The notes under the pieces were generated by a model. That model was given only the letters and a program-made list of their open reading frames with translations. It had not been told where the DNA came from and did no database searches. A stretch of DNA of 44,624 nucleotides from the NCBI GenBank assembly GCA_001464965.1, contig LNEJ01000064.1:1-44624 (forward strand), given 5' to 3'. Positions 5,523 to 35,310 of this stretch are shown here, in pieces. A program made the translations under genes and the position numbers. Each line of letters opens with the position of its first letter. Positions within the stretch are counted from its first letter, which is position 1. This stretch comes from Gammaproteobacteria bacterium Ga0074134. Its GTDB lineage: Bacteria; Pseudomonadota; Gammaproteobacteria; Ga0077554; Ga007554.

Positions 5523-5539
5523 AATAACGGGAGCTCACC

Positions 5540-7367: not shown

Positions 7368-7459
7368 TCATCACCTGACGTATTCGTGATCGTTTCCTGA
7401 GCGCGCCCGCCGCCCTTGGTCGCGTTGGCGCGCTCGCAAAAACAAAAAAGGAGTTCATC

Positions 7460-8776: not shown

Positions 8777-8810
8777 GACTAAAGAACATTCGATACAAGG
8801 AAACCATGCA

Positions 8811-10016: not shown

Positions 10017-10029
10017 CAGGAGAGCGGAC

Positions 10030-13000: not shown

Positions 13001-13116
13001 CGCTGGCGACGGTGGTGGTGGGCGGACTGTTCACCTCCACCGCGCTGACGTTACTTTTGCTGCCGCTCATGTACGAATGGGTGGAGAACCGCGCAGAACG
13101 CAAGCAAGCGAAGTAG
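10030..13116 (+). CDS. czcA: CzcA-like heavy-metal RND efflux pump (HME family)
   Basis: A 1028-residue inner-membrane proton antiporter, full length for the family. It has TM1 near residues 13-28, a porter loop, TM2-6 (about 340-500), a second porter loop and TM8-12. The TM4 motif reads GLGMTIDGPVVLVEN. D404 and E411 align with CzcA D408 and E415, but the first acidic position (CzcA D402) is G398. The subtype is therefore unlike classical zinc CzcA and also differs from the CusA type. The metal cannot be named. The gene lies 13 bases after the adaptor behind AGGAGAG (10018-10024). Confidence 0.9.
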   Translation: MLNKIVDFSLRYKVLVLAAFALVIFLGVRAWQKVPLDAFPDVTPVQVSVYTESPGLASEDVEKLLTFPIETAVAGLPGVQEIRSVSLFGLSYVSVYFRDDMDIYFARRLVSEKLLEAKARIPQGYGEPVLGPNTSGLGQVFWYTIEAADKKLSEMDLRTLQDWSVRLVLRTTPGVDDVISWGGHEKQYQALIDPNKLIKYGLTFKEVMVAIDLNNRQVGGQYVNLGREQYLVRGLGLVADTRDIGNIVITQRESTPVFVRDVAEVKEAPRLRTGAITRDGKEVVLGMALARTGENAQNVVEAVKEKLAVVKASLPDGVSLRQVYDRTELIGKAIAMADRAMIEGALLVIAVLFLFLGEVRSALIVVVAIPMARLIAFIFMDEYGVSANLMSLGGLIVGLGMTIDGPVVLVENAFRMLSHHAGKTVNRSQVVLEAAREVMNPIAFGVLIIIVVFLPLFALTGLEGKLFKPLALNMTFAMIGSLILTVTLIPVLAALGLRAKREREPFIVAWLRQRYTPLLQWVLDHKRPVTIGSALLFAGSLSLFPFLGKEFMPTLQEQAIMFRVTSIPSTSLEESVRISEGIEQALKAFPQVKYSLALIGRPEKLETVDVNYMEILVDLKPQEQWPKKISYQALTRKMQEAAEQAAPNAVIAATQPIQMRVEELISGVRATLAAKIYGEDLATLGRLAAEVKAAIETVPGAADLSLEANIGKPQMVVRVNREAAARLGLNADDILEVVQAGIGGKAVSTLIDGMKRFDIQVWLAPGFRNSVEAINNIPIRTPGGALVPLSRVASVELGEGYSFVRREQLQRYAVAQMDVQGRDVDGFVKEAEAAIKQKVKLPAGYWIEWGGAFENQQRAMAKLAVIVPLTIGLIFILLYTAFNSVKYATLIIANVPFAAIGGILSLFVSGQYLSVPAAVGFIAVFGVAMLNGIVLISFLNGLRQQGIGIRETVVSGATLRLRPVLMTALVEILGLIPFLLATGVGSEILRPLATVVVGGLFTSTALTLLLLPLMYEWVENRAERKQAK

Positions 13117-13199
13117 ACCGGGGACGCCAGCCAGGGAAAGCGACGCGTAAGCGAGCGCGGGCTGGCAACCCCCGGATAGCCGCAGGGGCCGGGAGTTTT

Positions 13200-13457
13200 G
13201 TCGAAGTCTGGGCGCATAAAGGCTACACCACGATGCCTGAATTACTGCTGGGACTGACGGAATATTTTGTGTTTTATAACACAGAAAGAATACACCAATC
13301 GTTGAACTACATCACGCCCGATGAGGTTTACCGTACAGCGAGCGGAGGCGGTGCAAGCATTGTAGACAAATTCAGTAAGACAGAAAAAAGTCATTCAAAA
13401 ATAGAAGCAATAACGGGGCAGCGCCGCTCTGCTGCATGTGAAAGGTTACCCTCTTAA
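13200..13457 (+). pseudogene. IS3-family transposase, C-terminal fragment
   Basis: The frame reads VEVWAHKGYTTMPELLLGLT, then EYFVFYNTERIHQSLNYITP, DEVYRTASGG and a tail to TAA. The YNTERIHQSLNYITPDEVY segment is the end of the DDE domain in IS3-family transposases. No start or upstream part exists; the fragment begins just after the czcA-like gene. The bases to about 13495 (TGAGGGGTCCACTATA) look like the matching terminal repeat of the element. Confidence 0.75.
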
Positions 13458-13514
13458 ACTCAATGCATTATTGTATTGACTGAGGGGTCCACTATAGAGG
13501 AGGTAAACGAGGAG

Positions 13515-13955
13515 GTGGATATCGAAACTGAACTTCTTTATGCCTCGCGCATGATGGTCGCTGCGCTGATAGGAGGCTTGATCGGCTGGGAAAGAGAGCG
13601 CCATGCAAGCGACGCGGGCATTCGAACTTACATGGCGATCTCTATAGGTGCTTGCGCATTCAGCCTGATATCCGCTCACGTGGACAACGATCCGACCCGT
13701 ATCGCGGCGCAGGTCGTCACCGGCATAGGCTTTATCGGAGCGGGCGTCATTTTTCAGGGTAAGGGGGGTATTGCAGGACTAACGACCGCCGCAACCCTTT
13801 GGGCGACAGCGGCAGTCGGCATGGCCAGCGCTTTCGGGATGTATGTGTTGGCGATCCTCACGGGAGGGCTGATTTTTGCAACCCTTGCGCTCCACCACCT
13901 ACCCGGCTGGAGGCGACTTAGCCAAAAGCCAGGCAACCACGACCATCCCGAGTAA
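13515..13955 (+). CDS. MgtC/SapB-family membrane protein
   Basis: A 146-residue membrane protein. ASRMMVAALIGGLIGWERER and the downstream HASDAGIRTYMAISIGACAF are hallmarks of the MgtC N-terminal domain. They are followed by TGIGFIGAGVIFQGKGGIAG with further helices. The C-terminal ACT-like domain of MgtC is absent, so this is the short membrane-only form. The track frame opens at a TTG inside the IS end; GTG 13515, 10 bases after GAGGAGGT, is preferred. Related proteins act in magnesium-limited growth and acid tolerance, but transport has not been shown for them. Confidence 0.85.
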   Translation: MDIETELLYASRMMVAALIGGLIGWERERHASDAGIRTYMAISIGACAFSLISAHVDNDPTRIAAQVVTGIGFIGAGVIFQGKGGIAGLTTAATLWATAAVGMASAFGMYVLAILTGGLIFATLALHHLPGWRRLSQKPGNHDHPE

Positions 13956-14020
13956 GTAGATGTCGTCAATTAGCATGGACAACTTTTGGTATCTTTAAAT
14001 TAACTGCAAAGGAATAAATC

Positions 14021-14257
14021 ATGGGATTCTTTGAACGGATACTGGGTAATTTGATGGGCGGCAGATTCGGCGGACACCACGGCGGCTATCAAGGAGGTCA
14101 TCATGGTGGTTCTAAACATGGCGGCTATGGCGGTTATCCAAGCTATCCACAGGGCAACGGCCCAGGCGGCGGCAATCCCGGCAACCGCTGCCCCAAGTGC
14201 GGCAGCGCCAATGCGGGCGATGCGCGCTTCTGCCAGCAGTGCGGTGCTTCCCTGTAG
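14021..14257 (+). CDS. Gly/His-rich zinc-ribbon protein, truncated by amber codon
   Basis: A 78-residue protein with a Gly/His/Tyr-rich linker (HHGGYQGGHHGGSKHGGYGG) and one zinc ribbon of the form CPKCG-x11-CQQC. AAGGAAT precedes the ATG. The TAG at 14255 falls exactly between two zinc ribbons: the same frame continues with a second CxxC-CxxC unit to 14338. Relatives, as I recall, carry two ribbons. The metal cluster location and His-rich linker suggest metal binding, but the function is unknown. Confidence 0.65.
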   Translation: MGFFERILGNLMGGRFGGHHGGYQGGHHGGSKHGGYGGYPSYPQGNGPGGGNPGNRCPKCGSANAGDARFCQQCGASL

Positions 14258-14338
14258 GCCGGCAAATGTTCCGGCTGCGGCGCGGAGCTGTCGGCGGGCA
14301 CCCGGTTTTGCGGCCAGTGCGGCAAAGCCCAACAGTAA
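14258..14338 (+). other. second zinc ribbon after in-frame TAG
   Basis: In the same frame as the preceding gene, the bases after TAG encode AGKCSGCGAELSAGTRFCGQ then CGKAQQ and TAA. This is a complete CxxC...CxxC zinc ribbon with no start codon of its own. It is either dead sequence left by a nonsense mutation or reached by amber readthrough. Confidence 0.6.
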
Positions 14339-14386
14339 CGCAGCGCATACCCCGCTGTAGTCATTTGATTCTTGAGGAGCAGCATC

Positions 14387-16738
14387 ATGGCTGAAAAACT
14401 TAAACTGGACTTGTCTCTGGTCTTGCCGGATGTCGCCGATGAGCGCGACGCTTGCGTGGGGCGGCTGACTAGATTGCTGCAGGCCGAAGGCCTGGAAAAG
14501 GTACACCTGGTCCGCGAAGACGGCAGCGCCCGCCTGTGCCTGCACTATGACCCGCAGCGATTCAGCGTGAGTCGGGTGCGCGAGCTGGCGCAAGCGGCCG
14601 GCGCCAGGCTCGGCAACCACTATCGCCATGAGAGCCTGCGCATCGACGGCATGGACTGCCCCACCTGCGCCACGGTGATCGAACACGCGCTGTCGCGCAT
14701 GGACGGGGTGCTGGAAGCCTCCGTGAGCTACGCCGCAGAACGTTTGCGCCTGGAATACGACAGCGAGAAAATTGAGCGTCCGGCAATTGTCCGGCGCATC
14801 CAGGCGCTCGGTTATGCCGTACTGGAGGAAGGCCGCGAGGCCGGATGGTTCGCCGAACATCGCGAGCTTATTTTGAGCGGCGTTGCCGGCTTGCTGTTGC
14901 TGGCGGGGTGGCTCGCGGGTCTCGCCGGCGCGCCGCGCACGCTTTCGCTCGGGCTGTTGCTGGGCGCTTACGCGGCGGGCGGCTTCTTTACCCTGCGCGA
15001 CGCTTGGCAGAGTTTGCGCAGCCGCCGTTTCGACATCGACACCCTGATGATCGTCGCGGCGGCCGGGGCCGCGGCCCTGGGCGCCTGGGCGGAAGGCGCG
15101 CTGCTGCTGTTCCTGTTCAGCCTGGGTCATGCGCTGGAACACATGGCCATGGACCGGGCGCGCAAGGCGATCGAGGCGCTGGCGGAACTGGCACCCAAGA
15201 CCGCGATCGTGCAGCGCGACGGCGCGGAGATCGAGGTGCGGGTCGAAGAACTGCTGCGCGGCGACCGGGTGGTCGTCAAACCCGGTCAGCGTATCCCCGC
15301 TGACGGCCAGGTGGCGTCGGGCAACTCGGCGGTGGATCAGTCCCCGGTCACCGGCGAATCCATGCCGGTGGACAAACAGCCCGGCGACAAGGTATTCGCC
15401 GCTACAGTCAATGGAGAAGGTGCGCTGGTCGTCGAAGTCACCAAGCTGGCGCAGGAGAGCACGCTGGCGCGCATGGTGGTGATGGTGGCCGAGGCGCAGG
15501 TTCAGAAATCCCCCACCCAGCGCTTCACTGACCGCTTCGAGCGGATCTTCGTGCCCGTCGTGCTGGCGGGCGCCGTGCTGCTCATCGTACTGCCGCCGCT
15601 GTTCGGCTTCCCTTTCGCCGAATCCTTCTATCGCGCCATGGCGGTGCTGGTGGCGGCCTCCCCGTGCGCGCTCGCCATCGCCACCCCGTCGGCGGTGTTG
15701 TCCGGCATCGCGCGCGCCGCGCGCGGCGGCGTGCTGATCAAGGGCGGTGCACATCTGGAAAATCTGGGCGTGCTCACGGCCATCGCCTTTGACAAAACCG
15801 GCACCTTGACCGTCGGCAAGCCCCAAGTGACCGACGTCGTTGCAGTCAACGGAGACGAGGCAGGCCTGCTGACCATTGCCGCCGCCGTGGAAAGCCGCAG
15901 CGCCCACCCTCTGGCGCAGGCGGTGGTGACGGAGGCGAAGGGACGCGGTTTAAGTTGGGATGAAGCCGGGGAGGTCGAAGCCGTGACCGGAAAAGGAGTG
16001 CGAGCTGAATTTGGCGGGCAAAAAATAGCCATCGGTAACGCCAGGTTGTTTGACGGCGAATCCATCCCCGAAGTGATTCAGCAGCAGGTGGCGCGTCTCC
16101 AGACGGAAGGCAAAAGCATCATGCTGATCCAGATAGACGGAACGTTTTTGGGCGTCGTGGCCCTGGCCGACACGCCACGCGAGGGCGTGAAGCAGGTACT
16201 GGAACGCCTGCACCAAACCGGCATCCGCAAGACCATCATGCTTACCGGTGACAACGAACGCGTGGGCCGCGCCATCGCCGACGCGGTGGGCCTGAACGAA
16301 GTGAAAGCGGGCCTGTTGCCGGAAGACAAGGTCAAGGCCATGGAGGAACTCGGGCAGCGCTACGGCCAGGTGGCCATGGTCGGCGACGGCGTCAACGACG
16401 CCCCCGCCATGGCGCGCGCCACGGTGGGCATCGCCATGGGCGGCGCGGGCACCGATGTGGCGCTGGAAACCGCGGACGTGGCGCTGATGGCCGACGATCT
16501 CTCCAAGCTGCCCTTCGCCGTGGCTTTAAGCCGCGCATCGCGGCGCATCATCCGGCAGAATCTGTATGTGTCGCTGGGCGTGGTGACGCTGCTGATTCCC
16601 GCTACCCTGTTCGGCTGGGCCGGCATCGGTGTGGCAGTATTGATCCACGAAGGCTCGACGGTGGTCGTGGTGCTGAACGCACTGAGATTGCTGGCCTACC
16701 GTTCTCCGGCTGACGGGAAGCAGCCAATCCCAGATTAG
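14387..16738 (+). CDS. P1B-type heavy-metal ATPase with SPC and HEGST motifs
   Basis: A 783-residue metal-exporting ATPase. An N-terminal HMA domain carries GMDCPTC near residues 87-94. The channel motif is SPC (in AASPCALAIATPSAVL) in place of CPC. The phosphorylated Asp lies in FDKTGTLTVGKPQ near residue 468, and the hinge is VGDGVNDAPA. H754 opens HEGST in the last membrane part. SPC with HEG(G/S)T is the signature of the P1B-4 (CoaT/CtpD-like) group, associated with cobalt and related divalent ions. Most of that group lack the HMA domain seen here. Start ATG 14387 follows GAGGAG. Confidence 0.88.
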   Translation: MAEKLKLDLSLVLPDVADERDACVGRLTRLLQAEGLEKVHLVREDGSARLCLHYDPQRFSVSRVRELAQAAGARLGNHYRHESLRIDGMDCPTCATVIEHALSRMDGVLEASVSYAAERLRLEYDSEKIERPAIVRRIQALGYAVLEEGREAGWFAEHRELILSGVAGLLLLAGWLAGLAGAPRTLSLGLLLGAYAAGGFFTLRDAWQSLRSRRFDIDTLMIVAAAGAAALGAWAEGALLLFLFSLGHALEHMAMDRARKAIEALAELAPKTAIVQRDGAEIEVRVEELLRGDRVVVKPGQRIPADGQVASGNSAVDQSPVTGESMPVDKQPGDKVFAATVNGEGALVVEVTKLAQESTLARMVVMVAEAQVQKSPTQRFTDRFERIFVPVVLAGAVLLIVLPPLFGFPFAESFYRAMAVLVAASPCALAIATPSAVLSGIARAARGGVLIKGGAHLENLGVLTAIAFDKTGTLTVGKPQVTDVVAVNGDEAGLLTIAAAVESRSAHPLAQAVVTEAKGRGLSWDEAGEVEAVTGKGVRAEFGGQKIAIGNARLFDGESIPEVIQQQVARLQTEGKSIMLIQIDGTFLGVVALADTPREGVKQVLERLHQTGIRKTIMLTGDNERVGRAIADAVGLNEVKAGLLPEDKVKAMEELGQRYGQVAMVGDGVNDAPAMARATVGIAMGGAGTDVALETADVALMADDLSKLPFAVALSRASRRIIRQNLYVSLGVVTLLIPATLFGWAGIGVAVLIHEGSTVVVVLNALRLLAYRSPADGKQPIPD

Positions 16739-16761
16739 ACGGAAGAACCGAAGGGATTTTT

Positions 16762-17808
16762 ATGCAAACAGGCATCTACCAGGCGCTGCTCGCCGCCGTG
16801 CTGTTCGGGGCGAGCACGCCACTGGCAAAGTCGCTGACCGGCACAACCTCACCCCTGATTCTGGCGGGCCTGCTCTATCTCGGCAGCGGCCTGGGCTTGT
16901 CCGGGTGGCGGGCGTGGCGACGGCTGAGCGGCGCGCCTTTGACAGAGGCGCCGCTGACACGCCCGGACCTGCCCTGGCTGGCGGGGGCGGTCGTTGCCGG
17001 CGGGATGGCCGCGCCTGTCCTGCTCATGTGGGGCCTGAGTTCCGTACCCGGCGCCACCGCCTCGCTGTTGCTGAATCTCGAAGGGGTGTTCACGGCGCTC
17101 ATCGCCTGGTTCGTGTTCCGCGAGAACTTCGATGCGCGCATCGCGCTCGGCATGGGATTCATCGTGGTCGCGGGCGCGCTGCTCTCATGGGACCCGTCGA
17201 CCGGCTTCACGCTGCCCTTGGGCGCCCTGGCGGTGATCGGCGCGTGCCTGTGCTGGGCAATAGACAACAACCTGACCCGCAAGGTATCGGCGAGCGACGC
17301 GGCACAGATCGTCTCGATCAAGGGACTGGCCGCCGGCGGCAGCAATCTGGCGCTCGGCATCCTCATGGGGGGAACGCTGCCTGCGCCGCTCCATGCCGCA
17401 GGGGCGGCCGCGGTCGGGTTCATCGGCTATGGTGTCAGTCTGGTGCTCTTCGTGTTGGCGCTGCGCAATCTGGGCACGGCGCGGACCGGCGCCTATTTTT
17501 CCGTCGCGCCGTTCACCGGCGCGCTGATCGCCATGCTCTTCTTCGGGGAACGCCCCGGACCGTGGTTCTGGACGGCGGCGGGGCTGATGGCTGCCGGGAT
17601 CTGGCTTCATCTCACCGAACGCCATCGACACGAGCACACCCAGGAGCCGATCCGTCACGCCCACCGGCATGTCCATGACGAACACCACCGGCACGAGCAT
17701 GACTTCGAGTGGGACGGGAACGAGCCGCATGCACACGAGCACGTCCATGCGCCGATCACGCATTGGCATCCCCATTACCCCGATCTGCATCACCGGCATC
17801 GGCACTGA
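16762..17808 (+). CDS. EamA-family transporter with histidine-rich tail
   Basis: A 348-residue protein with ten predicted membrane helices in two EamA repeats, starting at QALLAAVLFGASTPLAKSLT and, for the second, at LPLGALAVIGACLCWAIDNN. It is followed by a cytoplasmic tail of about 60 residues very rich in His (HRHEHTQEPIRHAHRHVHDE and on to HHRHRH). It lies 23 bases after the P1B ATPase gene. The tail probably buffers or senses divalent metal, and export of metal or a metal complex is plausible. EamA substrates vary widely, so this is inference. Confidence 0.82.
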   Translation: MQTGIYQALLAAVLFGASTPLAKSLTGTTSPLILAGLLYLGSGLGLSGWRAWRRLSGAPLTEAPLTRPDLPWLAGAVVAGGMAAPVLLMWGLSSVPGATASLLLNLEGVFTALIAWFVFRENFDARIALGMGFIVVAGALLSWDPSTGFTLPLGALAVIGACLCWAIDNNLTRKVSASDAAQIVSIKGLAAGGSNLALGILMGGTLPAPLHAAGAAAVGFIGYGVSLVLFVLALRNLGTARTGAYFSVAPFTGALIAMLFFGERPGPWFWTAAGLMAAGIWLHLTERHRHEHTQEPIRHAHRHVHDEHHRHEHDFEWDGNEPHAHEHVHAPITHWHPHYPDLHHRHRH

Positions 17809-17894
17809 GTCCTGGATGAAGGCCGCTGATACAATGAGGATCGGTGTCTATCCTGAGTTCACTTCCTTGAATATAAACGCAGAGGAGAGATGAC

Positions 17895-18143
17895 ATGATG
17901 AGCGACTGGGACCACTTCGGCGGGTGGGGAATGGGCTTTGGCATCGTGTTCATGGTGCTGTTCTGGGGGCTGGTCATTCTCGGCATCGCCGCGCTGATCC
18001 GCTGGCTGCTGACGCCGTCACCGCCGGGCCGCAGCGCGCGCGACAAGACGCCATTGGAGATCCTGCAGGAACGCTACGCACGCGGTGAGATCGACCGGGA
18101 GGAATACGAACAGAAGAAGCGCGACCTGGAGCCGCGAGCATGA
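17895..18143 (+). CDS. SHOCT-domain small membrane protein
   Basis: An 82-residue protein. It has an N-terminal membrane helix (GFGIVFMVLFWGLVILGIAA) and a C-terminal SHOCT domain (PLEILQERYARGEIDREEYE), a short helical hairpin found at the ends of many bacterial proteins. GAGGAGA precedes ATGATG. Its stop overlaps the ATG of the following cysteine desulfurase fragment as ATGA. Small proteins of this kind are frequent in metal-resistance islands; the function is unknown. Confidence 0.8.
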   Translation: MMSDWDHFGGWGMGFGIVFMVLFWGLVILGIAALIRWLLTPSPPGRSARDKTPLEILQERYARGEIDREEYEQKKRDLEPRA

Positions 18144-18434
18144 AGGCGCCGGTTTACCTCGATTACAACGCCACCACGCCGGTCGCCCCGCAAGTGGCCG
18201 AGGCGATGCGGCCCTACCTGGTGGAGCACTTCGGCAATCCGTCTTCCTCGCATGTCTATGGCCAGCGGGCCGCCGGTGCGGTGCATGAAGCCCGTGTCTC
18301 CGTCGCGCGACTGATCGGCGCCGATTCGGAGGAGATCGTCTTCACCGGCTGCGCCACCGAAGCCAACAATCTGGCGCTCCTCGGCGTCGCCCGCGCGCTC
18401 GCGGGGAAGGCGCGGCATCTGGTGGTGAGCGCGG
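18140..18434 (+). pseudogene. cysteine desulfurase (NifS/IscS-like), N-terminal fragment
   Basis: The frame encodes MKAPVYLDYNATTPVAPQVA, FGNPSSSHVYGQRA and EIVFTGCATEANNLALLG, the N-terminal signatures of class V aminotransferase-fold cysteine desulfurases. Similarity ends after HLVVSA near residue 98 of a normal length of about 380. The catalytic lysine and cysteine are absent. The frame runs on to 18481 in unrelated sequence shared with the next gene. It is an inactive stump left by a deletion joint. Confidence 0.75.
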
Positions 18435-18464
18435 AAACCGGTGGGCCGGGCGACGGCCAAGAGT

Positions 18465-18650
18465 ATGGCCGCCGGGGATGAGTGCGGTGATGCCCCGCGT
18501 CGCGATCCCGCTTCCGCTGAAGAGCGGCAGCGGATGATCGCCACGGCAGCGTATCTCCGGGCCGAACGCCGGGGGTTCGCGCCCGGCCACGAGACCGAAG
18601 ACTGGCTGGAGGCCGAGGCGGAGATCGACCGGCAGCTTGCCTGCGGGTGA
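18465..18650 (+). CDS. DUF2934-like protein
   Basis: A 61-residue protein. EERQRMIATAAYLRAERRGF followed by ETEDWLEAEAEIDRQL is the compact helical DUF2934 domain. The ATG at 18465 is preferred to the GTG at 18441, but the gene overlaps the end of the cysteine desulfurase remnant, so its true 5' end and ribosome binding site may have been lost. Function unknown. Confidence 0.6.
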   Translation: MAAGDECGDAPRRDPASAEERQRMIATAAYLRAERRGFAPGHETEDWLEAEAEIDRQLACG

Positions 18651-18722
18651 GCCGTTTGACGCGCGGCTGGAGCGTCTTCGACAGTGGGGCAAAAGCGAGG
18701 GTCTTTTTAGAGGAGATGAAAT

Positions 18723-18905
18723 ATGGTAACTGATCCAGTGTGCAAAATGGACGTGGACCCGGCCAAGGCAGCAGCGAAGGTGGAATACGCCGGGCAGGCA
18801 TACCTGAATGAGCTGGTGGCAGTGGACGGCCGCCTCCTGCATCTCTTCGGTAACAACGATGACGAGGTGATTGTGGTGGGTGGCGGGCAGTTGACACTGC
18901 TTTGA
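18723..18905 (+). pseudogene. YHS-domain protein fragment fused to foreign sequence
   Basis: GAGGAGATG precedes ATG 18723. The first 28 residues, MVTDPVCKMDVDPAKAAAKV then EYAGQAY, are the start of a YHS metal-binding domain. The expected continuation with the second cysteine pair is missing. From about 18804 the frame reads unrelated sequence (LNELVAVDGRLLHLF). On the minus strand that sequence reads MAISKQCQLPATHHNHLVIV from 18914, possibly the start of a lost backbone gene. The joint at about 18804 separates metal cargo from element backbone. Confidence 0.6.
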
Positions 18906-18947
18906 GATTGCCATCTTGACGCAAAACGCCAAACAAATAATTCCCTG

Positions 18948-18980
18948 AAAAAAACCGGCGGGAAAAATTCTCGCCGGTTT
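18948..18980 (-). terminator. intrinsic terminator
   Basis: On the minus strand AAACCGGCG and CGCCGGTTT form a 9-bp stem around an 11-base loop, followed by seven T. It lies 15 bases after the stop of the 18995-19240 gene and closes the backbone operon. Confidence 0.85.
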
Positions 18981-18994
18981 GTGAGACCGGTTAT

Positions 18995-19240
18995 CTACTC
19001 TTTTTCGATGAGATTCACGAATGCTTCTCCCTCGACATAGGTGTCGTTGCAAATGCTGTCATTAATCTCTTCGCTGGTTTTTACGCAAGTACCGATCGAC
19101 CAATCGATGATCCACGAGGAATCATCTGTTTCCGGGTCAACCGGCGCCTGTGCTGCTCCCAACATCTCATTGATGCCGTCGTAAACTCGCGCCTCATCAG
19201 GTTCATCAACAAGAATACGCAGTGTGACTATGTGTGCCAT
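18995..19240 (-). CDS. small acidic hypothetical protein
   Basis: An 81-residue acidic protein beginning MAHIVTLRILVDEPDEARVY. I do not recognise the family. Two features resemble another backbone protein (24849-25103): an N-terminal strand with a polar start and an acidic C-terminus. The track frame opens at 19372 inside the leader; ATG 19240 follows AAGGAGCTCAC. It is the last gene of the minus-strand series, with its own stem A/stem B leader upstream and an intrinsic terminator just downstream. Confidence 0.7.
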   Translation of the reverse strand: MAHIVTLRILVDEPDEARVYDGINEMLGAAQAPVDPETDDSSWIIDWSIGTCVKTSEEINDSICNDTYVEGEAFVNLIEKE

Positions 19241-20566: not shown

Positions 20567-20608
20567 GTCGGGTAAGGAAGCTGCATTGCTGCAAGCTCCC
20601 TCCCCTAA

Positions 20609-20642
20609 GAACCGTACGTGAAAGTTTCCCGTCATACGGCTC
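20609..20642 (-). ncRNA. group II intron domain V
   Basis: A 34-base catalytic hairpin beginning GAGCCGTATGACGGG and ending CACGTACGGTTC, with the GAAA tetraloop-type centre and the two-base bulge. Its first bases overlap the stop codon of the intron-encoded protein (20641-20643). The sequence is of the kind seen in chloroplast-like (CL) bacterial introns. Confidence 0.9.
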
Positions 20643-22356
20643 AAGCCTCTCTAAGTTCCCTTGCGGGAACCGGCTTCACAACGTCCAATTTCCGGTTATG
20701 AACCTGCCTGTGACAATTTGGATGCAAAAGAACCAAGTTGGACATGATGTCTTTTCCACCATCAACACGACGAACCAGATGATGAACATTCCATCCTGAT
20801 TCTTTCGTGATGCGTTGTTGGCAGATCGGACAGAGTCCTTCCTGATCTAACCAGAGCTTTATCAGCTTCCTACGCCCTCGCAGGTTGTCTTCCATCTTGG
20901 CCCCGATTCGGGCCTCAAAGTAGGATTCCCAGCGTGGATCAAATGGATTGGCTTCCGCCCTGATCTTGCAATAGCGTCGGATTGGTGTTTCACCGGCATA
21001 GACCAGCTTCACCAATTTTGGCTTTCCATTCGGCAAAACATCGCCGGTTTCTGCCGCAAACACCCAAGTACGAGTCCCCACGTTCTTAAAGTACTTGTCT
21101 TTAATCCAGTAGTGGTTCTTCTTTGGATGCCGACGTTTCGCCCATTGCCACAAACAGCGCCAGATTTCTCGATCAACGGTTTGAAAGGTGTCTTTGGCTA
21201 CCACATGGCGATGATAATTGATCCACCCCCGAATGACTGGGTTGAGCTGGTTTATCACGTTCAGGTGCTTCGCCTGTTTGTTGCCTTTCACGATTCCCCG
21301 GACTTTGTCCAAGAACGTAGCTACGTTCTTTTTCGACGGCTTGATCAACAACTTCTTACCGTACTTGCGGACGTTTTGTCCGAGAAAATCGAACCCTTCT
21401 TCAATGTGCGTAATCTTGGTTTTCTCAGCAGAAAGGATCAAACCTCTTTCCGCCATGAATGCCTCAACAAGTGGCTTAACCTCATCTTCGAGTAGCTCTT
21501 TCGAGACGCCCGTTATGATAAAGTCATCCGCATAACGCACCAGATTGACTTTGACCTTTTGGCCCCTTCGGGTTGTCCAAGGATACGCTTTCTCAAGCGC
21601 AGCCTGTAGACCATCCAGAGCCATGTTTGCCAATGTCGGCGAGATGATTCCGCCTTGCGGCGTACCCGCATCTGTTGAATGAAGAAGCCCATCTTCCATG
21701 TATCCAGCCTTTAGCCATTTGCGAAGAATCTCCTTGTCCAATGGAATATTGGACAGAAGCCATTCATGACTGATGTTGTCAAAGCAGCCTTTGATGTCGC
21801 CTTCTAAAACCCATTGCGGAGAATTGCCACGTGCGAGCGCCTTGTAACAGTGCTCGATCGCATCCGCAGTGCATCTTTGAGGACGAAACCCATATGAGTT
21901 CGTATCCGCTTTGGTTTCCGAGACGGGTTCCAGTGCCAGCAGGTGTAAAGCCTGCATAGCCCGGTCCTTCATCGTCGGAATTCCTAACGGGCGCATCTTT
22001 CCATTGCTTTTCGGGATATAGACCCGGCGCAAGGGACGTGGTTGATAACCACGTCTGCTAAGCGATGACACGGCCAGAGTTTTGGATTCTGGTGTTGACC
22101 AAGTTGCCTTATCGACACCTGGCGTGTTCTTACCTTGATTTTCAGTCACCCGTTTCACGGCGATTGCTTTACCAGAAAACGAGTGGGTCAGCAGCCATTG
22201 CAAAGCTTTCACCTTGCCCCAGCGGCCTTCCTGTGTTGCCTTTACGATGCGCGCTTGGAGCCTCCTGACTTCCCTATGACACTCAGCCCAGCGGATGCTG
22301 TGCCATGATGTCGGGTCGCCGGAGAGCGCACCTGCGCGAACAGCTTGCGTAGTCAT
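20641..22356 (-). CDS. ltrA: group II intron reverse transcriptase/maturase with HNH domain
   Basis: A 571-residue intron-encoded protein. The reverse transcriptase motifs are present: YIPKSNGKMRPLGIPTMKDR, GTPQGGIISPTLANMALDG and the catalytic LVRYADDFII. Next comes the maturase (X) region around LNPVIRGWINYHRHVVAKDT. The C-terminal HNH endonuclease (CPICQQRI, HHLVRRVDGGKD, NLVLLHPNCHRQVH) is intact. It promotes intron splicing and retrohoming. ATG 22356 lies 9 bases after AGGAGG; ATG 22362 is a closer alternative. No frameshift is visible, so the intron may still be mobile. Confidence 0.92.
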   Translation of the reverse strand: MTTQAVRAGALSGDPTSWHSIRWAECHREVRRLQARIVKATQEGRWGKVKALQWLLTHSFSGKAIAVKRVTENQGKNTPGVDKATWSTPESKTLAVSSLSRRGYQPRPLRRVYIPKSNGKMRPLGIPTMKDRAMQALHLLALEPVSETKADTNSYGFRPQRCTADAIEHCYKALARGNSPQWVLEGDIKGCFDNISHEWLLSNIPLDKEILRKWLKAGYMEDGLLHSTDAGTPQGGIISPTLANMALDGLQAALEKAYPWTTRRGQKVKVNLVRYADDFIITGVSKELLEDEVKPLVEAFMAERGLILSAEKTKITHIEEGFDFLGQNVRKYGKKLLIKPSKKNVATFLDKVRGIVKGNKQAKHLNVINQLNPVIRGWINYHRHVVAKDTFQTVDREIWRCLWQWAKRRHPKKNHYWIKDKYFKNVGTRTWVFAAETGDVLPNGKPKLVKLVYAGETPIRRYCKIRAEANPFDPRWESYFEARIGAKMEDNLRGRRKLIKLWLDQEGLCPICQQRITKESGWNVHHLVRRVDGGKDIMSNLVLLHPNCHRQVHNRKLDVVKPVPARELREA

Positions 22357-22982
22357 CTGCATTCCCTCCTGTGAAGGTTGATCAAACAATCTCGTAAAGA
22401 AAGACCTTGCGGAAGTCTGCCCGCTTTCGCGTGGGATGATGTTGCCATGTCGGTGCAATCCCTATTCGACCCATTACAGGCCGACATTCGCTTTCTCCGC
22501 ATTCCTATACCCGCACTTCCAACAACGTTCCTTACGGTTCGCCTGCCCATCTCGGGCGAAAATACGGGCTTACCATGTTCCACTTAAACAACAAGAACGG
22601 GTTAGACCCTGCCTATCCACCGGTAGCGTTGAATGTCCGCGTGCCCTCATACAAAAGGAGGGCAACCCGCTACGTCGCCTTTTTGGCTCAAGCCTGTCAG
22701 CATCTTTGGCTTGTACACACGTGACGATGTTTATCAGCAGTTCACTTGCGTTGGTCATACCGTCCAGCCTAGCGCCCCCTCCGCATTGATGCTCGCAGAT
22801 GCAGATATCCCCTCACGGTTCAATCCTGGCTTTTCAGCCGAGCTACATTGTCATGGCAGCTTCACACATACCCGTTACCCGGTATGCATGTGCCACTAGG
22901 CTACTGTTGGCGGAGCAACAGGTTTCCTCGCTGGTTAAAAAACCCCAGTTGAAACGATTGTCTAAGCGACTTCATGTCGCAC

Positions 22983-24149: not shown

Positions 24150-24226
24150 GGTGTGCTCCTCTTGTGGTTGAAAAAACAAGGGGCAAACCACGCCCCTTCA
24201 GGGGAATGAGTTGCCCCTGTAGGGTG
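24150..24226 (-). promoter_or_regulatory. attenuator-like leader L2
   Basis: Minus strand. Stem A: AGGGG/CCCCT closed by CCCT/AGGG. Stem B: GGGGCAA/TTGCCCC followed by TTGTTTTTTC. TTCAACC and AGAGGAG precede the helicase ATG. Confidence 0.7.
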
Positions 24227-24250
24227 GATGAAAGTTTGTGCTATATCACA

Positions 24251-24742: not shown

Positions 24743-24820
24743 GGATCGGCTCCTTTTGTGGTTGAAAAAACAAAGGGGCAGTCCACGGCCCCGGAGGGGA
24801 ACGTGGATCGTCCCCTGCGG
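24743..24820 (-). promoter_or_regulatory. attenuator-like leader L3
   Basis: Minus strand. Stem A: GGGG/CCCC closed by CCCG/CGGG. Stem B: GGGGAC with TCCACG against CGTGGACT and GCCCC, followed by TTTGTTTTTTC. TTCAACC and AAGGAG precede the ATG. Confidence 0.7.
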
Positions 24821-24848
24821 GCAAATAGAAGGCAATAAAAAATGTTTC

Positions 24849-25103: not shown

Positions 25104-25171
25104 GCTTTCTCCTGTATACAATAAATCCAAGAAAAGCACGCTCCCCTGCCGGGAATGTGATTCCCCGGATG
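25104..25171 (-). promoter_or_regulatory. attenuator-like leader L4
   Basis: Minus strand. Stem A: CCGGGGAAT/ATTCCCGG. Stem B: CAC-TTCCC against GGGGA-GTG, followed by TTTTCTTGG. Nearly identical leaders stand before 30855 (L11) and 34465 (L16). It follows long element R1. Confidence 0.6.
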
Positions 25172-25392
25172 GGTGGTTGAAGAAACCGCATCGACATCGA
25201 TGCGGCAGGTTTGAAGATGGACCGGCAGCCTTGCGGCCGCTGTGCCCGTGGGTACGGTCCGGCACATCCGAGGATGTGCATGGGCACGGGGCGCTGATCA
25301 AGGATCAGCAAGAGCACGACTGAACCCGCAGTCGCCACGGTTACAACACATCGACAGCTTTCCCAAATCCACATTGCTTGCAGGCTTGGGAA
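25172..25392 (-). ncRNA. long structured leader element R1 (radC-motif-like)
   Basis: Minus strand, 5' to 3': closing stem TTTCCCAA/TTGGGAAA, hairpin GACTG/CAGTC, hairpin GCTGATC/GATCAGC, arm GTGCCC/GGGCAC enclosing CACATCC-TCGG-ATGTG, hairpin GCGGCC/GGCTGC, then CCGCATCG/CGATGCGG. Complete copy. It resembles the published radC RNA motif in place and neighbours. Confidence 0.7.
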
Positions 25393-26116: not shown

Positions 26117-26195
26117 GTTTATGCTCCTATCGTTGGGTTAGAAAACCCATCGATGGAGGAACCCCATCGGAGGTGTCCTCCCCGATGGGATTGCA
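26117..26195 (-). promoter_or_regulatory. attenuator-like leader L5
   Basis: Minus strand. Stem A: CCCATCGG/CCGATGGG. Stem B: GGAGGA/TCCTCC, reusing bases in the loop and 3' arm of stem A. A CCATCGATGG palindrome and GTTTTC follow, then AGGAG. Confidence 0.6.
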
Positions 26196-27321: not shown

Positions 27322-27403
27322 GGTTATTGCCTCCATTGGTTGAAAGAAAAAATCAACGGGTAGGCAACCCCCTGCGGGGATTGCTCCCCATTGGGGTGAT
27401 TAA
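27322..27403 (-). promoter_or_regulatory. attenuator-like leader L6
   Basis: Minus strand. Stem A: CCCC-GGGG against CCCC-GGGG. Stem B: GGGG-GCAA-CCCC against GGGG-TTGC-CCC, followed by GATTTTTTC. TTCAACC and TGGAGG come before the ATG. Confidence 0.65.
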
Positions 27404-27748: not shown

Positions 27749-27829
27749 AAATTGGTCTCCTTGTGGTTGATATAAGAAACCAACAGGGAGACACACCCCC
27801 AGCGGGGATTGCTCCCCGTTGAGGTTGGT
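27749..27829 (-). promoter_or_regulatory. attenuator-like leader L7
   Basis: Minus strand. Stem A: CAACGGGG/CCCCGCTG. Stem B: GGGGAG/CTCCC. The T-rich part is weak here (GTTTCTTAT). TCAACCAC and AAGGAG follow. Confidence 0.6.
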
Positions 27830-27844
27830 TGTTGCGTTACGCCG

Positions 27845-28429: not shown

Positions 28430-28506
28430 GTGATGTCTCCTCTTTAGTTTGAGAACCGACACGCGGAAGGAACCCGTTGCCGGGAATGCCTTCCCCGGCG
28501 GGGATT
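28430..28506 (-). promoter_or_regulatory. attenuator-like leader L8
   Basis: Minus strand. Stem A: GCCGGGGAA/TTCCCGGC closed by CCC/GGG. Stem B: CG-GGAAGG/CCTTCC-CG. The T-rich tract is poor. AGAGGAG follows. It is preceded by long element R2. Confidence 0.6.
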
Positions 28507-28716
28507 GAAATAGCTGCTCCGAGAAACAGCGACGTTGAAGATGAACCGGCGATCTCGCGATCGCTGTGCCCGTGGGTACGGTCCGGCACACCCGAAGGTG
28601 CGCATGGGCACGGGGCGCTGACGTGAGTCAGCAATGGCGCGACTGAATCCGCAGTCGCCACGGTTACAACACCTGAACTTTTCTGAAGGCCTAGACTCGA
28701 TTAGACCCTCAGAAAA
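28507..28716 (-). ncRNA. long structured leader element R2 (radC-motif-like)
   Basis: Minus strand. Closing stem TTTTCTGA/TCAGAAAA, hairpin GACTG/CAGTC, hairpin GCTGAC/GTCAGC, arm GTGCCC/GGGCAC enclosing CGCACC-TTCG-GGTGTG, hairpin GCGATC/GATCGC. Relative to R1 the closing stem, second hairpin, arm tip and last hairpin all differ by paired changes. Confidence 0.72.
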
Positions 28717-29775: not shown

Positions 29776-29865
29776 GATCCGCTCCTTTGTTTGGTTTGCT
29801 TGGTTGAACAAAACCATGGGCGGACCACCCCATGGGCAGTGGTCGCCCATGATGGGTTTGAGATT
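29776..29865 (-). promoter_or_regulatory. attenuator-like leader L9
   Basis: Minus strand. Stem A: ATGGGC/GCCCAT closed by CCC/GGG. Stem B: CATGGGC-GACCAC against GTGGTC-GCCCATG, followed by GTTTTGTTC. Stem B reuses the 5' arm of stem A. This is one of the clearest mutually exclusive pairs. Confidence 0.7.
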
Positions 29866-30499: not shown

Positions 30500-30570
30500 A
30501 AACACCTCCTCCAGCGTTGAAAATGCCGGGGAGGCGCCCCGTTCAGGGAGCGGACTCCCCGGCGGGGTTG
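30500..30570 (-). promoter_or_regulatory. attenuator-like leader L10
   Basis: Minus strand. Stem A: GGGGAG/CTCCC closed by CCCCG/CGGGG. Stem B: GCCGGGGAG/CTCCCCGGC, 9 bp, followed by ATTTTC. The GGGGAG block is common to both stems. GGAGGAGG follows. Confidence 0.72.
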
Positions 30571-30624
30571 ATGGAACTTCACATGCAATCTTGTTTGAGC
30601 CTCGCGTAATCCACGAAGCCTCCG

Positions 30625-30855: not shown

Positions 30856-30930
30856 GGCTTTCTCCTCAGTTGATAGCCGGAGAAAGCACGCTCCCGACCC
30901 CGGGAGTGTGATTCCCCGGATGGGTGGTTG
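30856..30930 (-). promoter_or_regulatory. attenuator-like leader L11
   Basis: Minus strand. Stem A: CCGGGGA/CTCCCGG. Stem B: CTCCCG/CGGGAG, closed by CAC/GTG. TTTCTCC follows, then AGGAG. It is nearly identical to L4 and L16. Confidence 0.6.
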
Positions 30931-31001
30931 AAGAAACCGCATCGATGTCGATGCGGCAGGTTTGAAGATGGACCGGCAGCCTTGCGGCCGCTGTGCCCGT
31001 G
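30931..31001 (-). ncRNA. truncated long structured element R3
   Basis: Minus strand. Only the 3' part is present: CACGGGCAC, hairpin GCGGCC/GGCTGC and CCGCATCG/CGATGCGG. The 5' closing stem, the next two hairpins and half of the arm are missing. The break is at 31001, six bases after the radC stop. Confidence 0.7.
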
Positions 31002-31523: not shown

Positions 31524-31592
31524 AGTGACCTCCTCATTATTGAAAAAGCGGGAGGCCACCCCTCGGGGAGTGATCTCCCCGCAGGGTTGCGG
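31524..31592 (-). promoter_or_regulatory. attenuator-like leader L12
   Basis: Minus strand. Stem A: CGGGGAG/CTCCCCG closed by CCCT/AGGG. Stem B: GCGGGGAG/CTCCCGC followed by TTTTTC. The same GGGGAG pairs in either stem. GAGGAGG and the radC ATG follow. Confidence 0.72.
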
Positions 31593-31819
31593 ATGATTGT
31601 CGGCTTTTAGTGTGGCCGGCGATTTTTGAAGATGGACCGGCGGCCTTTGACGGCCGCTGTGCCCGTGGGTACGGTCCGGCACATCCGGGGATATGCATGG
31701 GCACATGGGCGCTGATCAAGGATCAGCAATGGCGCGACTGAATCCGCAGTCACCACGGTTAAAACACATCAAGGCACAGCCTTTTCCCAACAAGCGGTTG
31801 ACCGCCCCCTCGGAAAAAG
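31593..31819 (-). ncRNA. long structured leader element R4 before radC
   Basis: Minus strand. Closing stem TTTTTCC/GGGAAAA, hairpin GACTG/CAGTC, hairpin GCTGATC/GATCAGC, arm GTGCCC/GGGCAC with CATATCC-CCGG-ATGTG, hairpin GCGGCC-GTCAAA-GGCCGC. Complete copy. The following small hairpin has a different sequence (GCCGGCC region). Confidence 0.75.
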
Positions 31820-32548: not shown

Positions 32549-32622
32549 CATTGACCTCCTGCAAGGAAAACCAACAGGACGCACCATCCCCCAACAGGGG
32601 ATGATGCCCCGCTGGGGTTGAT
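32549..32622 (-). promoter_or_regulatory. attenuator-like leader L13
   Basis: Minus strand. Stem A: CCCCA/TGGGG with inner GGGG/CCCC. Stem B: GCATCATCC/GGATGGTGC, which uses the loop and 3' part of stem A. GGTTTTCC and AGGAGG follow. Confidence 0.6.
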
Positions 32623-32642
32623 AAAAAGGATGTGCTACAATT

Positions 32643-33113: not shown

Positions 33114-33192
33114 GGTCTGCTCCTTCTGCGTTTGAAATAAACGGGGGGCAGGCCACTCCCGGAAGGGCGATTTGCCCCTCGCGGGTGAGTTG
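33114..33192 (-). promoter_or_regulatory. attenuator-like leader L14
   Basis: Minus strand. Stem A: CCCG/CGGG with inner AGGGGC/GCCCT. Stem B: GGGGCA/TGCCCC followed by GTTTATTTC. The Shine-Dalgarno is AAGGAGC. Confidence 0.6.
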
Positions 33193-33208
33193 AAGATGTT
33201 TGACCTGA

Positions 33209-33430
33209 TTACCGTGGCGCAAAACCCACAGATGAAAGACCTGCTCGGATTTCCTCGCCGGCGGACACCATCTGGTATGCCTCATCCTTATCCGCTGCGC
33301 GCCCCATGTAATCCGAGAAGCAGACTCGCTTGAGGAACTGCGCATAAGCCAGGGCCTGATCTTCGGTCAGTTCTACCGTGAATCTCACAGGCTTTGTGGC
33401 AGATGGTAGCTTCGTTACTGTATCGCTCAT
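33209..33430 (-). CDS. small hypothetical protein
   Basis: A 73-residue protein (MSDTVTKLPSATKPVRFTVE). RFTVELTEDQALAYAQFLKR could be a strand followed by a helix, as in small ribbon-helix-helix proteins, but the residue pattern is not decisive. It has a Gly/Ala rich end. AAGGAGGC precedes ATG 33430. Its leader is the longest in the window, combining R5, a terminator-like hairpin and L15. Confidence 0.65.
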   Translation of the reverse strand: MSDTVTKLPSATKPVRFTVELTEDQALAYAQFLKRVCFSDYMGRAADKDEAYQMVSAGEEIRAGLSSVGFAPR

Positions 33431-33500
33431 GATGCCTCCTTACAAAAAAGCAAGGCGCGGACAATCCCCACAGTGGGGATCCGCCCCGTGCGGGTTGATG
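33431..33500 (-). promoter_or_regulatory. attenuator-like leader L15
   Basis: Minus strand. Hairpin GGATCCCCAC/GTGGGGATTGTCC around a short loop, with competing GGGG/CCCC and GGCGGA/TCCGCGCC pairings. GCTTTTTTG and AAGGAGG follow. Confidence 0.6.
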
Positions 33501-33520
33501 TTGATGACATTGATAGTGAT

Positions 33521-33553
33521 GAAAGAAAAACTGGGAACCCGAAGATTCCCAGT
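33521..33553 (-). terminator. terminator-like hairpin within a leader
   Basis: Minus strand. ACTGGGAATC/GGTTCCCAGT with one mismatch and loop TTCG region, then TTTTTCTTTC. It lies about 90 bases upstream of ATG 33430 and downstream of R5, so it would stop transcription before the gene unless prevented. Confidence 0.7.
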
Positions 33554-33888
33554 GAGGTTGAAGATACTGCGGTATCACATCCGCAGCGGGAGTAGAAGCC
33601 TCCGGGTCCCTGCCTGTGGGAGCAGTTCGAGGGGTTGACCGGAAACATTAGGACCGGCAGCCTTGCGGCCGCTGTGCCCGTGGGTACGGTCCGGCACATC
33701 CGAGGATGTGCATGGGCACGGGGCGCTGATCAAAGATCAGCAGGGCGTCACTTTTTACCGAAGTGACAAACGGGTGAAAACTTGCGATGCACACGGATGT
33801 GCGAGTGCCGCTGCAACGGCTCTCAGGCTACGAAAAAAGTTGAGTCTTTTTTCAGGGCTCTGCCAAACAACAGAGCGCTGGAAAAATC
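33554..33888 (-). ncRNA. long structured leader element R5 (extended copy)
   Basis: Minus strand. Closing stem TTTTTCCAG/CTGAAAAAAG with inner GCTCTG/CAGAGC, an expanded spacer, hairpin GTCACTT/AAGTGAC in the place of GACTG/CAGTC, hairpin GCTGATC/GATCAGC, arm GTGCCC/GGGCAC, hairpin GCGGCC/GGCTGC, then CTGCGG/CCGCAG. The most divergent complete copy. Confidence 0.65.
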
Positions 33889-33903
33889 CCTCCACGATTG
33901 CTT

Positions 33904-33934
33904 AAAGAAAGCTGGGAATCCGAAGATTCCCAGC
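33904..33934 (-). terminator. intrinsic terminator
   Basis: Minus strand GCTGGGAATC/GATTCCCAGC, a 10-bp stem with loop TTCG, then TTTCTTT. It lies 13 bases after the stop of the STY4534-like gene. Confidence 0.82.
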
Positions 33935-33946
33935 GTAGCGAACACA

Positions 33947-34465
33947 CTAATAAACCAGTTCGTCAAGACTGCTTCTCCCGGCGTGTTGCTTCGCCGGTGC
34001 GGCAGGAAGGATGTCGCCCGTAAGAGGCTCGTCCGTTGCCGCATCTTGAGCATCTGATGCGTGAGCATCGGATGCTACTGGCAACACATGCTTGCCGTCG
34101 ACCTTGGCCCAGTGGATTATCAGCAACCGGGCCTTGAGGCTGAAGCCGGTCTGACCTGCCTTTTCGCCCTTGTCATAGACAAAGGTATCGGTGTAAAGAT
34201 CACCGAGCTTGAAGGACACCAGCACCTTCTTCTTGGCCTGGATTTCCGGCAGCAGAAGCTGGATGACCTCCTGCGCTTCCGATCCAGAGACCCGGCAGTC
34301 AAAGCGGGTGTACTGAACATCCTCGGCATCACCATGCAATGCCGAGACATCCACGGCAAGAAACGGTTGACCGCGTTTTACCTGTACTTCACGGACGCGG
34401 TTGAGATAACCGATGCCCGAGATATGCAGGTCGAAATACTTCTGATCTTGATTTGCTTGAGACAT
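33947..34465 (-). CDS. STY4534/DUF3577-family ICE replication protein
   Basis: A 172-residue protein. KYFDLHISGIGYLNRVREVQ, then RGQPFLAVDVSALHGDAEDV and YTRFDCRVSGSEAQEVIQLL, match the DUF3577 (STY4534) family linked to single-strand DNA handling in PFGI-1/SPI-7-like elements. The second half has strands followed by a disordered Ala/Asp-rich tail. GGAAGTGCC precedes ATG 34465. Upstream lie L16 and a trace of a long element, then two tiny membrane ORFs. Confidence 0.85.
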   Translation of the reverse strand: MSQANQDQKYFDLHISGIGYLNRVREVQVKRGQPFLAVDVSALHGDAEDVQYTRFDCRVSGSEAQEVIQLLLPEIQAKKKVLVSFKLGDLYTDTFVYDKGEKAGQTGFSLKARLLIIHWAKVDGKHVLPVASDAHASDAQDAATDEPLTGDILPAAPAKQHAGRSSLDELVY

Positions 34466-34543
34466 GGCACTTCCTCCAATGGTTAAAAAAACCGGAGAAA
34501 GCACGCTCCCGACCCCGGGAATGTGATTCCCCGGATGGGTGGT
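34466..34543 (-). promoter_or_regulatory. attenuator-like leader L16
   Basis: Minus strand. Stem A: CCGGGGAAT/ATTCCCGG. Stem B: TTCCCG/CGGGAG closed by CAC/GTG. TTTCTCC follows. Almost the same as L4 and L11. Confidence 0.6.
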
Positions 34544-34582
34544 TGAAGAAACCGCATCGTCATCGATACGGCGGGTTTGAAA
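34544..34582 (-). ncRNA. remnant of long structured element R6
   Basis: Only the last hairpin, CCGTATCG/CGATGCGG with a G-T pair, and the CCGCC/TTTCAAA flank of the long element are present. The 5' part is replaced by the end of the tiny ORF at 34587-34682. Confidence 0.55.
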
Positions 34583-34998: not shown

Positions 34999-35063
34999 AA
35001 TGCCTCCTCTGAAATGAAAGGGGAAGCATTCCCGATGAGGGATTACGCTCCCCATCGGGTTGA
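34999..35063 (-). promoter_or_regulatory. attenuator-like leader L17
   Basis: Minus strand. Stem A: CCCGATG/CATCGGG. Stem B: GGGGAGC/GCTTCCCC with inner ATCCC/GGGAA, followed by TTTCATTTC. The two stems cannot coexist. GAGGAGG follows. Confidence 0.7.
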
Positions 35064-35222
35064 AGATAACGCACACTTGCGTGTGGGCAAAATTGAAGAT
35101 GGACCGGCGGCCTTGCGGTCGCTGTACCCGTGGATACGGTCCGGCACATCCGGGGATGTGCATGGGCACATGGGCGCTGATCAAGGATCAGCAAGGGCGC
35201 GACTTTAACGAAGTCGTCACGT
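35064..35222 (-). ncRNA. long structured leader element R7
   Basis: Minus strand. Hairpin GACTT/AAGTC (paired change from GACTG/CAGTC), hairpin GCTGATC/GATCAGC, arm GTGCCC/GGGTAC with CACATCC-CCGG-ATGTG, hairpin GCGACC/GGCCGC, then CACAC/GTGTG. No 5' closing stem is obvious; 35223-35310 holds nothing I can name. Confidence 0.68.
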
Positions 35223-35310
35223 AGTAATGCACTCTCAACTTATACCATATCGAACCGGCTGTCAAATACTTTATCGGGAACTGTAGCGAGCAAGTAAACT
35301 GTCCTGCCCT

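Follow-up and report, generated by a model that had tools for sequence, protein, structure and literature searches.

On its sequence, the minus-strand interval at 33431-33946, 5' of a small gene in a module of genes of an integrative conjugative element (ICE), is a structured RNA and very probably a regulatory one; our favoured reading, which we consider probable, takes it for a cis-regulatory RNA leader of several parts that belongs to an ICE gene unit. The window (the whole stretch of DNA analysed) is a complete contig, C64, of 44,624 bp from a 2.9-Mb genome. The gene itself (33209..33430, minus strand) is an ATG ORF of 73 codons, as an earlier sequence-only reading had proposed, and encodes a member of the Pfam family DUF7706 (PF24806, E 3.5e-23). 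Its minus-strand neighbours include a topoisomerase, a RadC-like protein, DUF3275 and an ICE protein of the DUF3577/STY4534 family (33947-34465, minus strand), and the gene set around it is a module of ICEs of the DUF3577/RadC/DUF3275 type. Elsewhere on the contig, two group II intron domain matches on the minus strand (RF02012 at 22773-22922 and RF00029 at 20567-20644, spanning 20567-22922) flank a 605-codon ORF at 20641-22458. A 98-nt inverted repeat at the contig ends (1-98/44510-44607, 99% complementary) represents either a mobile-element end or an effect of assembly.

The interval folds better than its shuffles (z -8.0), in agreement with the earlier description of it as structured and regulatory. 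Read on the minus strand, the putative leader would begin with a terminator-like hairpin (33911..33934) closing the DUF3577 unit and continue with a copy of a conserved pseudoknot RNA, named c5, in which the hairpins P0 and P1 are followed by a pseudoknot of P2 and P4 whose last loop contains P5. The 5' part of c5 (33743..33782) contains P0 (GTCACTT/AAGTGAC) and a TTTTCACCCG stretch, and the remainder (33647..33751), with P1, P2, P3, P4 and P5, scores 120.6 bits with the covariance model R1 and 73.0 bits with R2. Between c5 and the leader hairpins stands a strong UUCG-loop hairpin of the intrinsic-terminator type (33530..33553; ACTGGGAATC-TTCG-GGTTCCCAGT then TTTTTCTTTC; 10 pairs, -15.6 kcal/mol, z -4.5), which confirms the strong terminator-like hairpin reported 5' of the gene. 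Both the MFE and the centroid structure of the interval fold contain it; over 26 nt it matches the hairpin at the end of the DUF3577 unit to 92%, and it has the make-up of an intrinsic attenuator, namely a GC-rich hairpin and a T run between unit head and gene. The last part would be the module's standard two-hairpin switch, here the leader of the DUF7706 gene (33431..33500, the L15 of the sequence-only reading): a GC-rich SL1 followed by a weak SL2, in which an upstream segment (U run/CCUUGC) would pair with the gene's own SD GUAAGGAGGC. The GC-rich hairpin adjoining the SD (33497-33436) is thus present as described.

Other parts of the earlier description need amendment. The long element reported upstream of the gene is real, but the term "divergent" misleads: over a core of 92 nt it matches the copy at 25219-25310 with 99% identity, and it is the flanks that differ. 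The interval called a 450-base leader is also real, but 450 is an intergenic distance and not the length of a mapped transcript, and the upstream terminator-like site at 33934-33911 closes the preceding unit. A promoter in 33431-33520 that bypasses the upstream structures had been named beforehand as what would refute the proposal; a consensus scan found no sigma-70 promoter on the minus strand in 33431-33525. A second promoter scan gave no minus-strand entry here, and no good sigma-70 promoter was found in the interval, the sole candidate being an 8-of-12 site (33780-33752) inside the RNA element. An extra stretch of about 110 nt with the UUCG terminator before the RBS hairpins is peculiar to c5, whose distance from RNA end to ATG (216 nt) is the third longest of 52; this stretch either adds a step of attenuation or was left behind when a gene was lost.

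The two-hairpin leader recurs throughout the module: one design is common to 16 of the 18 minus-strand starts aligned between 24 and 35 kb, the starts without it being 25679 and 34811. From 5' to 3' it consists of a CAACC-like start, a GGGG..CCCC hairpin (SL1), a G run, an SD-complementary segment, often a T-rich loop, the SD and the start, and SL2 of each leader pairs the upstream segment with that gene's own SD region. Besides that of the DUF7706 gene, leader alignment and the SD-pairing test place such leaders on the minus strand at 24150..24235 (gene start 24149), 24743..24825 (24742), 25104..25180 (25103), 26117..26195 (26116), 27322..27402 (27321), 27749..27830 (27748), 28430..28510 (28429), 29776..29860 (29775), 30500..30573 (30499, DUF3275), 30856..30935 (30855; GCTTTCTCC/GGAGAAAGC), 31524..31600 (RadC-like gene; GGTGGCCTCC/GGAGGTCACT), 32552..32625 (32551), 33114..33195 (33113), 34466..34550 (DUF3577, STY4534 family; GTGCTTTCTCCGGT/ATTGGAGGAAGTGC) and 34999..35066 (34998; AATGCTTCC/GGAGGCATT). 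MFE folds of six leaders (gene starts 27748, 30499 and 34998, the RadC-like gene, DUF3577 and DUF7706) contain SL1 and an SL2 over the SD, and in several leaders a hairpin and T run end just 5' of the SD. A full pseudoknot RNA copy is absent in front of 11 of the 16 window leaders, so the RNA is dispensable for the leader hairpins as such.

The specificity of the SD pairing was assessed by a swap test, in which each SD zone was paired with its own upstream stretch or with the stretches of other genes, and by permutations. In the 16 window leaders, own pairing gave -16.64 kcal/mol versus -13.31 when swapped (sd 0.67), a difference matched in 0 of 5000 permutations (18 of 5000 with a run-length measure). 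Among 52 leaders behind the pseudoknot RNA, five of them from the window, the values were -17.7 and -14.05 (sd 0.37; 0/5000), although a leader's own stretch was the best of the 52 partners for only 8 and among the top three for 19. Seventeen leaders behind radC RNAs likewise gave 0/5000, whereas 23 control ORFs gave no signal (2832/5000). Thirteen pY89 genes chosen irrespective of leader type were not significant (500/2000). On these sequence comparisons, the SD pairing is gene-specific over the set of leaders. A crude measure of RBS accessibility did not separate the 16 leaders from nine control genes: the means were 0.35 for leaders (0.43 with the upstream part shuffled) and 0.38 for controls (0.43 shuffled). 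Locus L088, having no start, was left out of the first leader test, and six of 58 RNA members for which no start was found were left out of both the distance count and the 52-leader test; some of the starts assigned automatically are wrong (for example, L047:9630, L085:9818).

A second stem-loop pairing with the gene's own SD or start is thus found for the leader set but is weak in the DUF7706 gene itself, where it amounts to 6 bp by the run-length measure or to a wobble-rich pairing of the U run. The DUF7706 leader has a z of -1.97, compared with -3.1 to -4.7 in the five other folded leaders, and its centroid fold is without SL2. The idea that the length of the leader betokens unusually tight control of the 73-residue protein therefore finds no backing, since the same SD-pairing hairpins occur at 16 of 18 starts and the gene's own pairing is among the weaker ones. 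Nor does anything mark the protein as a master regulator, although it had been proposed as a key regulator of the element: its leader is generic and DUF7706 is rare, occurring in 5 of 369 class genomes (the neighbouring DUF3577 occurs in 20 of 369). No match to the 73-aa protein was confirmed in the genome-contig collection. The structure check suggested earlier yielded two predicted helices (pLDDT 67, pTM 0.37), at low confidence from a two-row alignment, and is silent on regulation.

A repeat search of the window identified five full copies and one fragment of the minus-strand pseudoknot RNA. In addition to c5, the full copies are c1 (25215..25320) and c4 (31630..31738, 5' of the RadC-like gene), both matched by R1 and R2; c2 (28539..28643), matched by R1 and bearing compensatory changes and UUCG and GNRA loops; and c6 (35097..35203), matched by both models, which heads the unit ending with DUF3577. 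The fragment c3 (30966..31001), 36 nt from the 3' part, lies directly behind the RadC-like gene and ahead of the next leader. Folding and inspection define the helices P0, P1, P2, P3, P4 and P5, of which P2 and P4 cross and P5 forms a hairpin in the last loop of the resulting pseudoknot; P3 is plain in the window and in L037, and absent or unclear elsewhere. The strand is indicated by one-sided changes in P1-P5 of the window copies, all eight of which give G-U on the minus strand (A-C on the plus strand), with one cell of the opposite kind. A longer subtype with a GGCCGGGAAGGAGGUGC core occurs at L047 11367, L081 11538 and L077 3482, about 155 nt before the start codon.

Model R1 was built from the five full window copies and R2 from 28 rows, both without the P4 pairs. 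In 28 aligned R1 hits, 97.0% of cells are paired, and both sides change in 25 of 33 pairs (0/500 shuffles); in the 59-row R2 alignment, which comprises 58 members and the window fragment and includes the 28 rows also used in training, 95.7% of cells are paired, with double changes in 23 of 25 pairs. P4 alone is paired in 150 of 150 cells with 10 double-change cells in the 28 hits, and in 98.9% of 348 cells with 28 double-change cells in the 59 rows (0/500 shuffles on the cell measures, 1/500 on pairs changed). Because the letters of the P4 columns are part of both models although the pairs are not, the double changes are what counts. A measure of further pair types showed no excess over shuffles for P4 (96/500 in the 28 hits; 59/500 in the 59 rows). 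Cells in these alignments are not independent events, as the window copies are paralogous and several relatives are close. The fragment (window:30966) was kept in alignments A5 and A7 and left out of the start-distance count. Taken at the level of sequence, these data establish the strand, structure and conservation of the RNA.

The covariance models recovered the 58 members and the fragment from about 17 genomes or contigs. R1 matches lie near DUF3577 in other ICEs, at loci that include Sedimenticola hydrogenitrophicus (L081), a Lamellibrachia symbiont (L082), a Chromatiaceae MAG (L088) and a MAG labelled Gemmatimonadetes (L077), and R2 adds Thioalkalivibrio (L086, L141), Aquisalimonas (L090), L085 and L051. 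At E <= 0.01, R2 has hits in 17 of the 369 class genomes, the weakest of which may be chance matches. The contigs titled Streptomyces (L098) and Gemmatimonadetes (L077) bear ICE genes of proteobacterial type, and contamination or misbinning is likely. The core pattern of the RNA had no match in viral contigs, its DNA had none in plasmids, and a BLAST search with the core in 95 genomes returned, outside the window, only matches of 26-34 nt (on another contig of the same genome and in two congeners), which by eye are apparently coding DNA.

The RNA stands 5' of ICE genes (DUF3577, RadC, DUF3275) and in many relatives adjoins SL1 directly on its 5' side; by sequence position it lies about 85 nt before starts in relatives, the median distance from RNA end to ATG among the 52 of 58 members with a start found being 85 nt. 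The placement of the RNA at unit heads is established partly by inspection, as for the five full window copies at the heads of gene runs. A sigma-70-like promoter, TTGACA-15-(TG)TATAAG (35239..35265, minus strand), lies just 5' of c6, and similar promoters precede L037:9778 (TTGACA-17-TATAAG), L037:7712 and L081:9830; other copies, by eye, follow an upstream terminator and then a second hairpin (for example, L047:17555, L081:17756). At L047 17555, L081 17756, L077 5838 and window 28543, the 5' arm of this second hairpin is the terminator's own U tract, and another T run often follows. Regular-expression patterns recognised a promoter before 9 of 58 copies and a simple terminator before 12 of 58, compared with a terminator at 73 of 1160 random positions. 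With overlapping sites counted separately, the 24-36 kb stretch has 36 terminator-like sites versus 11.8 (sd 3.0) in shuffles; the minus strand carries 29 of the 36, of which 15 fall inside 11 leaders. The comparison stretch, window 1-19000, has 23 versus 17.7 (sd 4.1).

At gathering thresholds, Rfam 15 recognised no family at the RNA, either in the window or in 15 loci that carry it; in the window the only matches were the two to group II introns, and in one scan covering 11 loci the sole hit was a cobalamin riboswitch in L077. Permissive scans (24-36 kb at E <= 1, the interval at E <= 10, and L085:9500-14500 at E <= 5) returned chance matches or nothing, and sub-gathering matches such as those to an lncRNA and a snoRNA family were dismissed as chance. 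Searches of open-access PMC text returned nothing on the pseudoknot RNA itself, while the radC motif (RF01754) appeared in two papers and DUF3577 in five. An HDV-like ribozyme was considered and rejected: two helices are laid out in a similar way, but in the position of P3 of the HDV fold there are only about 6 nt. A boxA-like reading of a TTTTWACCGT stretch was judged too weak.

The closest counterpart of the new RNA is the radC RNA (RF01754), which occupies the same place in related ICEs, including pY89, beside DUF3577 and other module genes. Between it and the starts found there are 28-198 nt, and the leaders that follow it pair with the SD; it shares with the new RNA a 5' GCUGAC-GUCAGC-like hairpin and a 3' layout of P2', P4', P2', hairpin and P4' that ends at the last base of the match. 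This crossing layout was found in 12 of 17 radC sequences by script, several of them near-identical, and in a thirteenth (L145:6263) by eye; it is our own reading, and the nested structure given by cmscan does not include it. For single radC sequences shuffled versions often reach equal scores, and the support comes from a constant layout with changing letters. The radC RNAs of pY89 (L013 15484-15634, 16742-16889, 13326-13463 and 18111-18259, minus strand), for example, have P2' x P4' helices such as GATCGC/GCGATC crossing GCTTCC/GGAAGC. The sequence CGGTAGCG in some Pseudomonas aeruginosa radC RNAs, which we take to be ops-like, was dropped as a candidate, not being seen in the new RNA. A 58-codon ICE ORF at L013 15841-16017 is labelled an OXA-573 beta-lactamase in PLSDB, apparently a mislabel.

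The two RNAs nevertheless differ. The central hairpins of radC RNA (GcAGCC/GGCUgC and gCGcGG/CCgCGc) are, by inspection, absent from the 59 pseudoknot RNA sequences, and neither model finds the other RNA: R2 found no radC RNA at E <= 0.1, and RF01754 did not reach its gathering score (40 bits) on the window copies, giving no row at E <= 10 for the interval or at E <= 1 for the other copies. The best RF01754 score in the same genome is 15.5 bits, on another contig. Among 25 loci scanned with Rfam, six have radC RNA, and the new RNA was found in none of those six (E <= 0.1). The new RNA is therefore not a member of RF01754 as curated; the two probably do the same job, their structures being either related or converged. 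The radC RNA is listed in a table of PMC2864571.

The downstream leaders resemble the parA and traH switches of the gonococcal genetic island, where, as described in PMC8716806 (which cites Ramsey 2015), two stem-loops stand 5' of the gene and the second hides the SD and start codon. When the inner legs of the parA leader were removed, reporter output is described there as rising >10-fold in E. coli and, in gonococci, about 400-fold (p = 0.14 in the legend for the latter), and ParA and ParB as becoming readily visible on blots. That island also carries a DUF3577 gene, according to PMC3334931. The switches there concern two transcripts of one island, whereas the present leaders, known from sequence alone, stand at 16 of 18 module starts and in other genera, and often have a pseudoknot RNA upstream. 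STAXI (RF01728), for its part, is described in PMC2864571 as a pseudoknot with UUCG loops near DNA-handling genes, but with two to three pseudoknot repeats and a listing for Enterobacteriales, compared with one pseudoknot per site here; the Rfam scans of the window and loci gave no row for it.

On the favoured reading, the leaders, which look like the gonococcal parA switch, may also act like it: the two-hairpin part would, by analogy, keep translation low until SL2 is opened. The pseudoknot RNA would serve as a sensing or loading part at unit heads; it may be a sensor, a protein site or an antiterminator. At c5 only, the extra terminator may add transcription attenuation before the RBS. A different account of this stretch, tentative at best, is that c5 has lost its own first gene, so that the RNA, a remnant and a terminator are left before the leader of the next gene. 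Such a scar would fit the unusual distance to the ATG and the full terminator in between, which is nearly the same as that at the end of the DUF3577 unit, but no remnant ORF was identified, and in genome G131 the RNA likewise heads a unit with DUF7706, the gene there standing behind a small ORF.

The put and EAR (epsC) RNAs are antiterminators that lie on the sense strand at unit heads, ahead of terminators. By analogy with this placement, the pseudoknot RNA may be put- or EAR/epsC-like, altering RNA polymerase at unit heads and so causing read-through of the terminator-like hairpins. Processive antitermination of this kind, a possible though doubtful explanation, would accommodate the copies found after a promoter and those found after a terminator and second hairpin, the excess of terminator-like sites and their preference for the coding strand, and the leaders that end in a hairpin and T run just before the SD. 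However, no Rfam family matched the RNA at the thresholds applied, SD pairing specific to each gene suggests an action on translation, and the T run can be the SL2 loop or a pairing partner. It is unlikely that the pseudoknot is a ligand-binding riboswitch that binds a small molecule or ion and passes the signal to the adjoining SL1 and SL2: the compact fold with a hairpin in its last loop, the conserved unpaired letters and the position directly 5' of SL1 in many relatives would fit, but there are several copies per element with varied downstream genes, and most window leaders have no full copy in front. The motifs lie near DNA-handling genes of a conjugative element, and action as folded single-stranded DNA during transfer (a promoter or protein site) was considered for STAXI in PMC2864571; for the present element such action, in place of action as RNA, is very improbable, given that the one-sided changes favour G-U on the sense strand (8 versus 1), that UUCG and GNRA loops occur on that strand in some copies, and that the leader lying downstream is fitted to an mRNA's SD.

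The cis-regulatory leader is the preferred reading, and its pseudoknot RNA is, by sequence, a family beyond the recognition of Rfam 15, placed where other ICEs carry radC RNA. A broader proposal, which we regard as rather doubtful, is that the two RNAs are interchangeable versions of one master signal of the ICE superfamily: a single trans-acting factor would read the unit-head pseudoknots and open the RBS-hiding hairpins (or license read-through) module-wide, so that the silent state and the switch to transfer would be set largely by RNA and not by promoters. DUF3577 relatives were found in 323 stretches of bacterial genomes, and the 80 kept include many Pseudomonas and several Betaproteobacteria; thus, this type of ICE is common. 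To our knowledge, little is understood of how such ICEs hold down the expression of their module genes. With the pseudoknot RNA and the module-wide SD-pairing leader, it could be tested cheaply whether the silent state of these ICEs is under post-transcriptional control; the two would also link both gonococcal-island switches to a general design.
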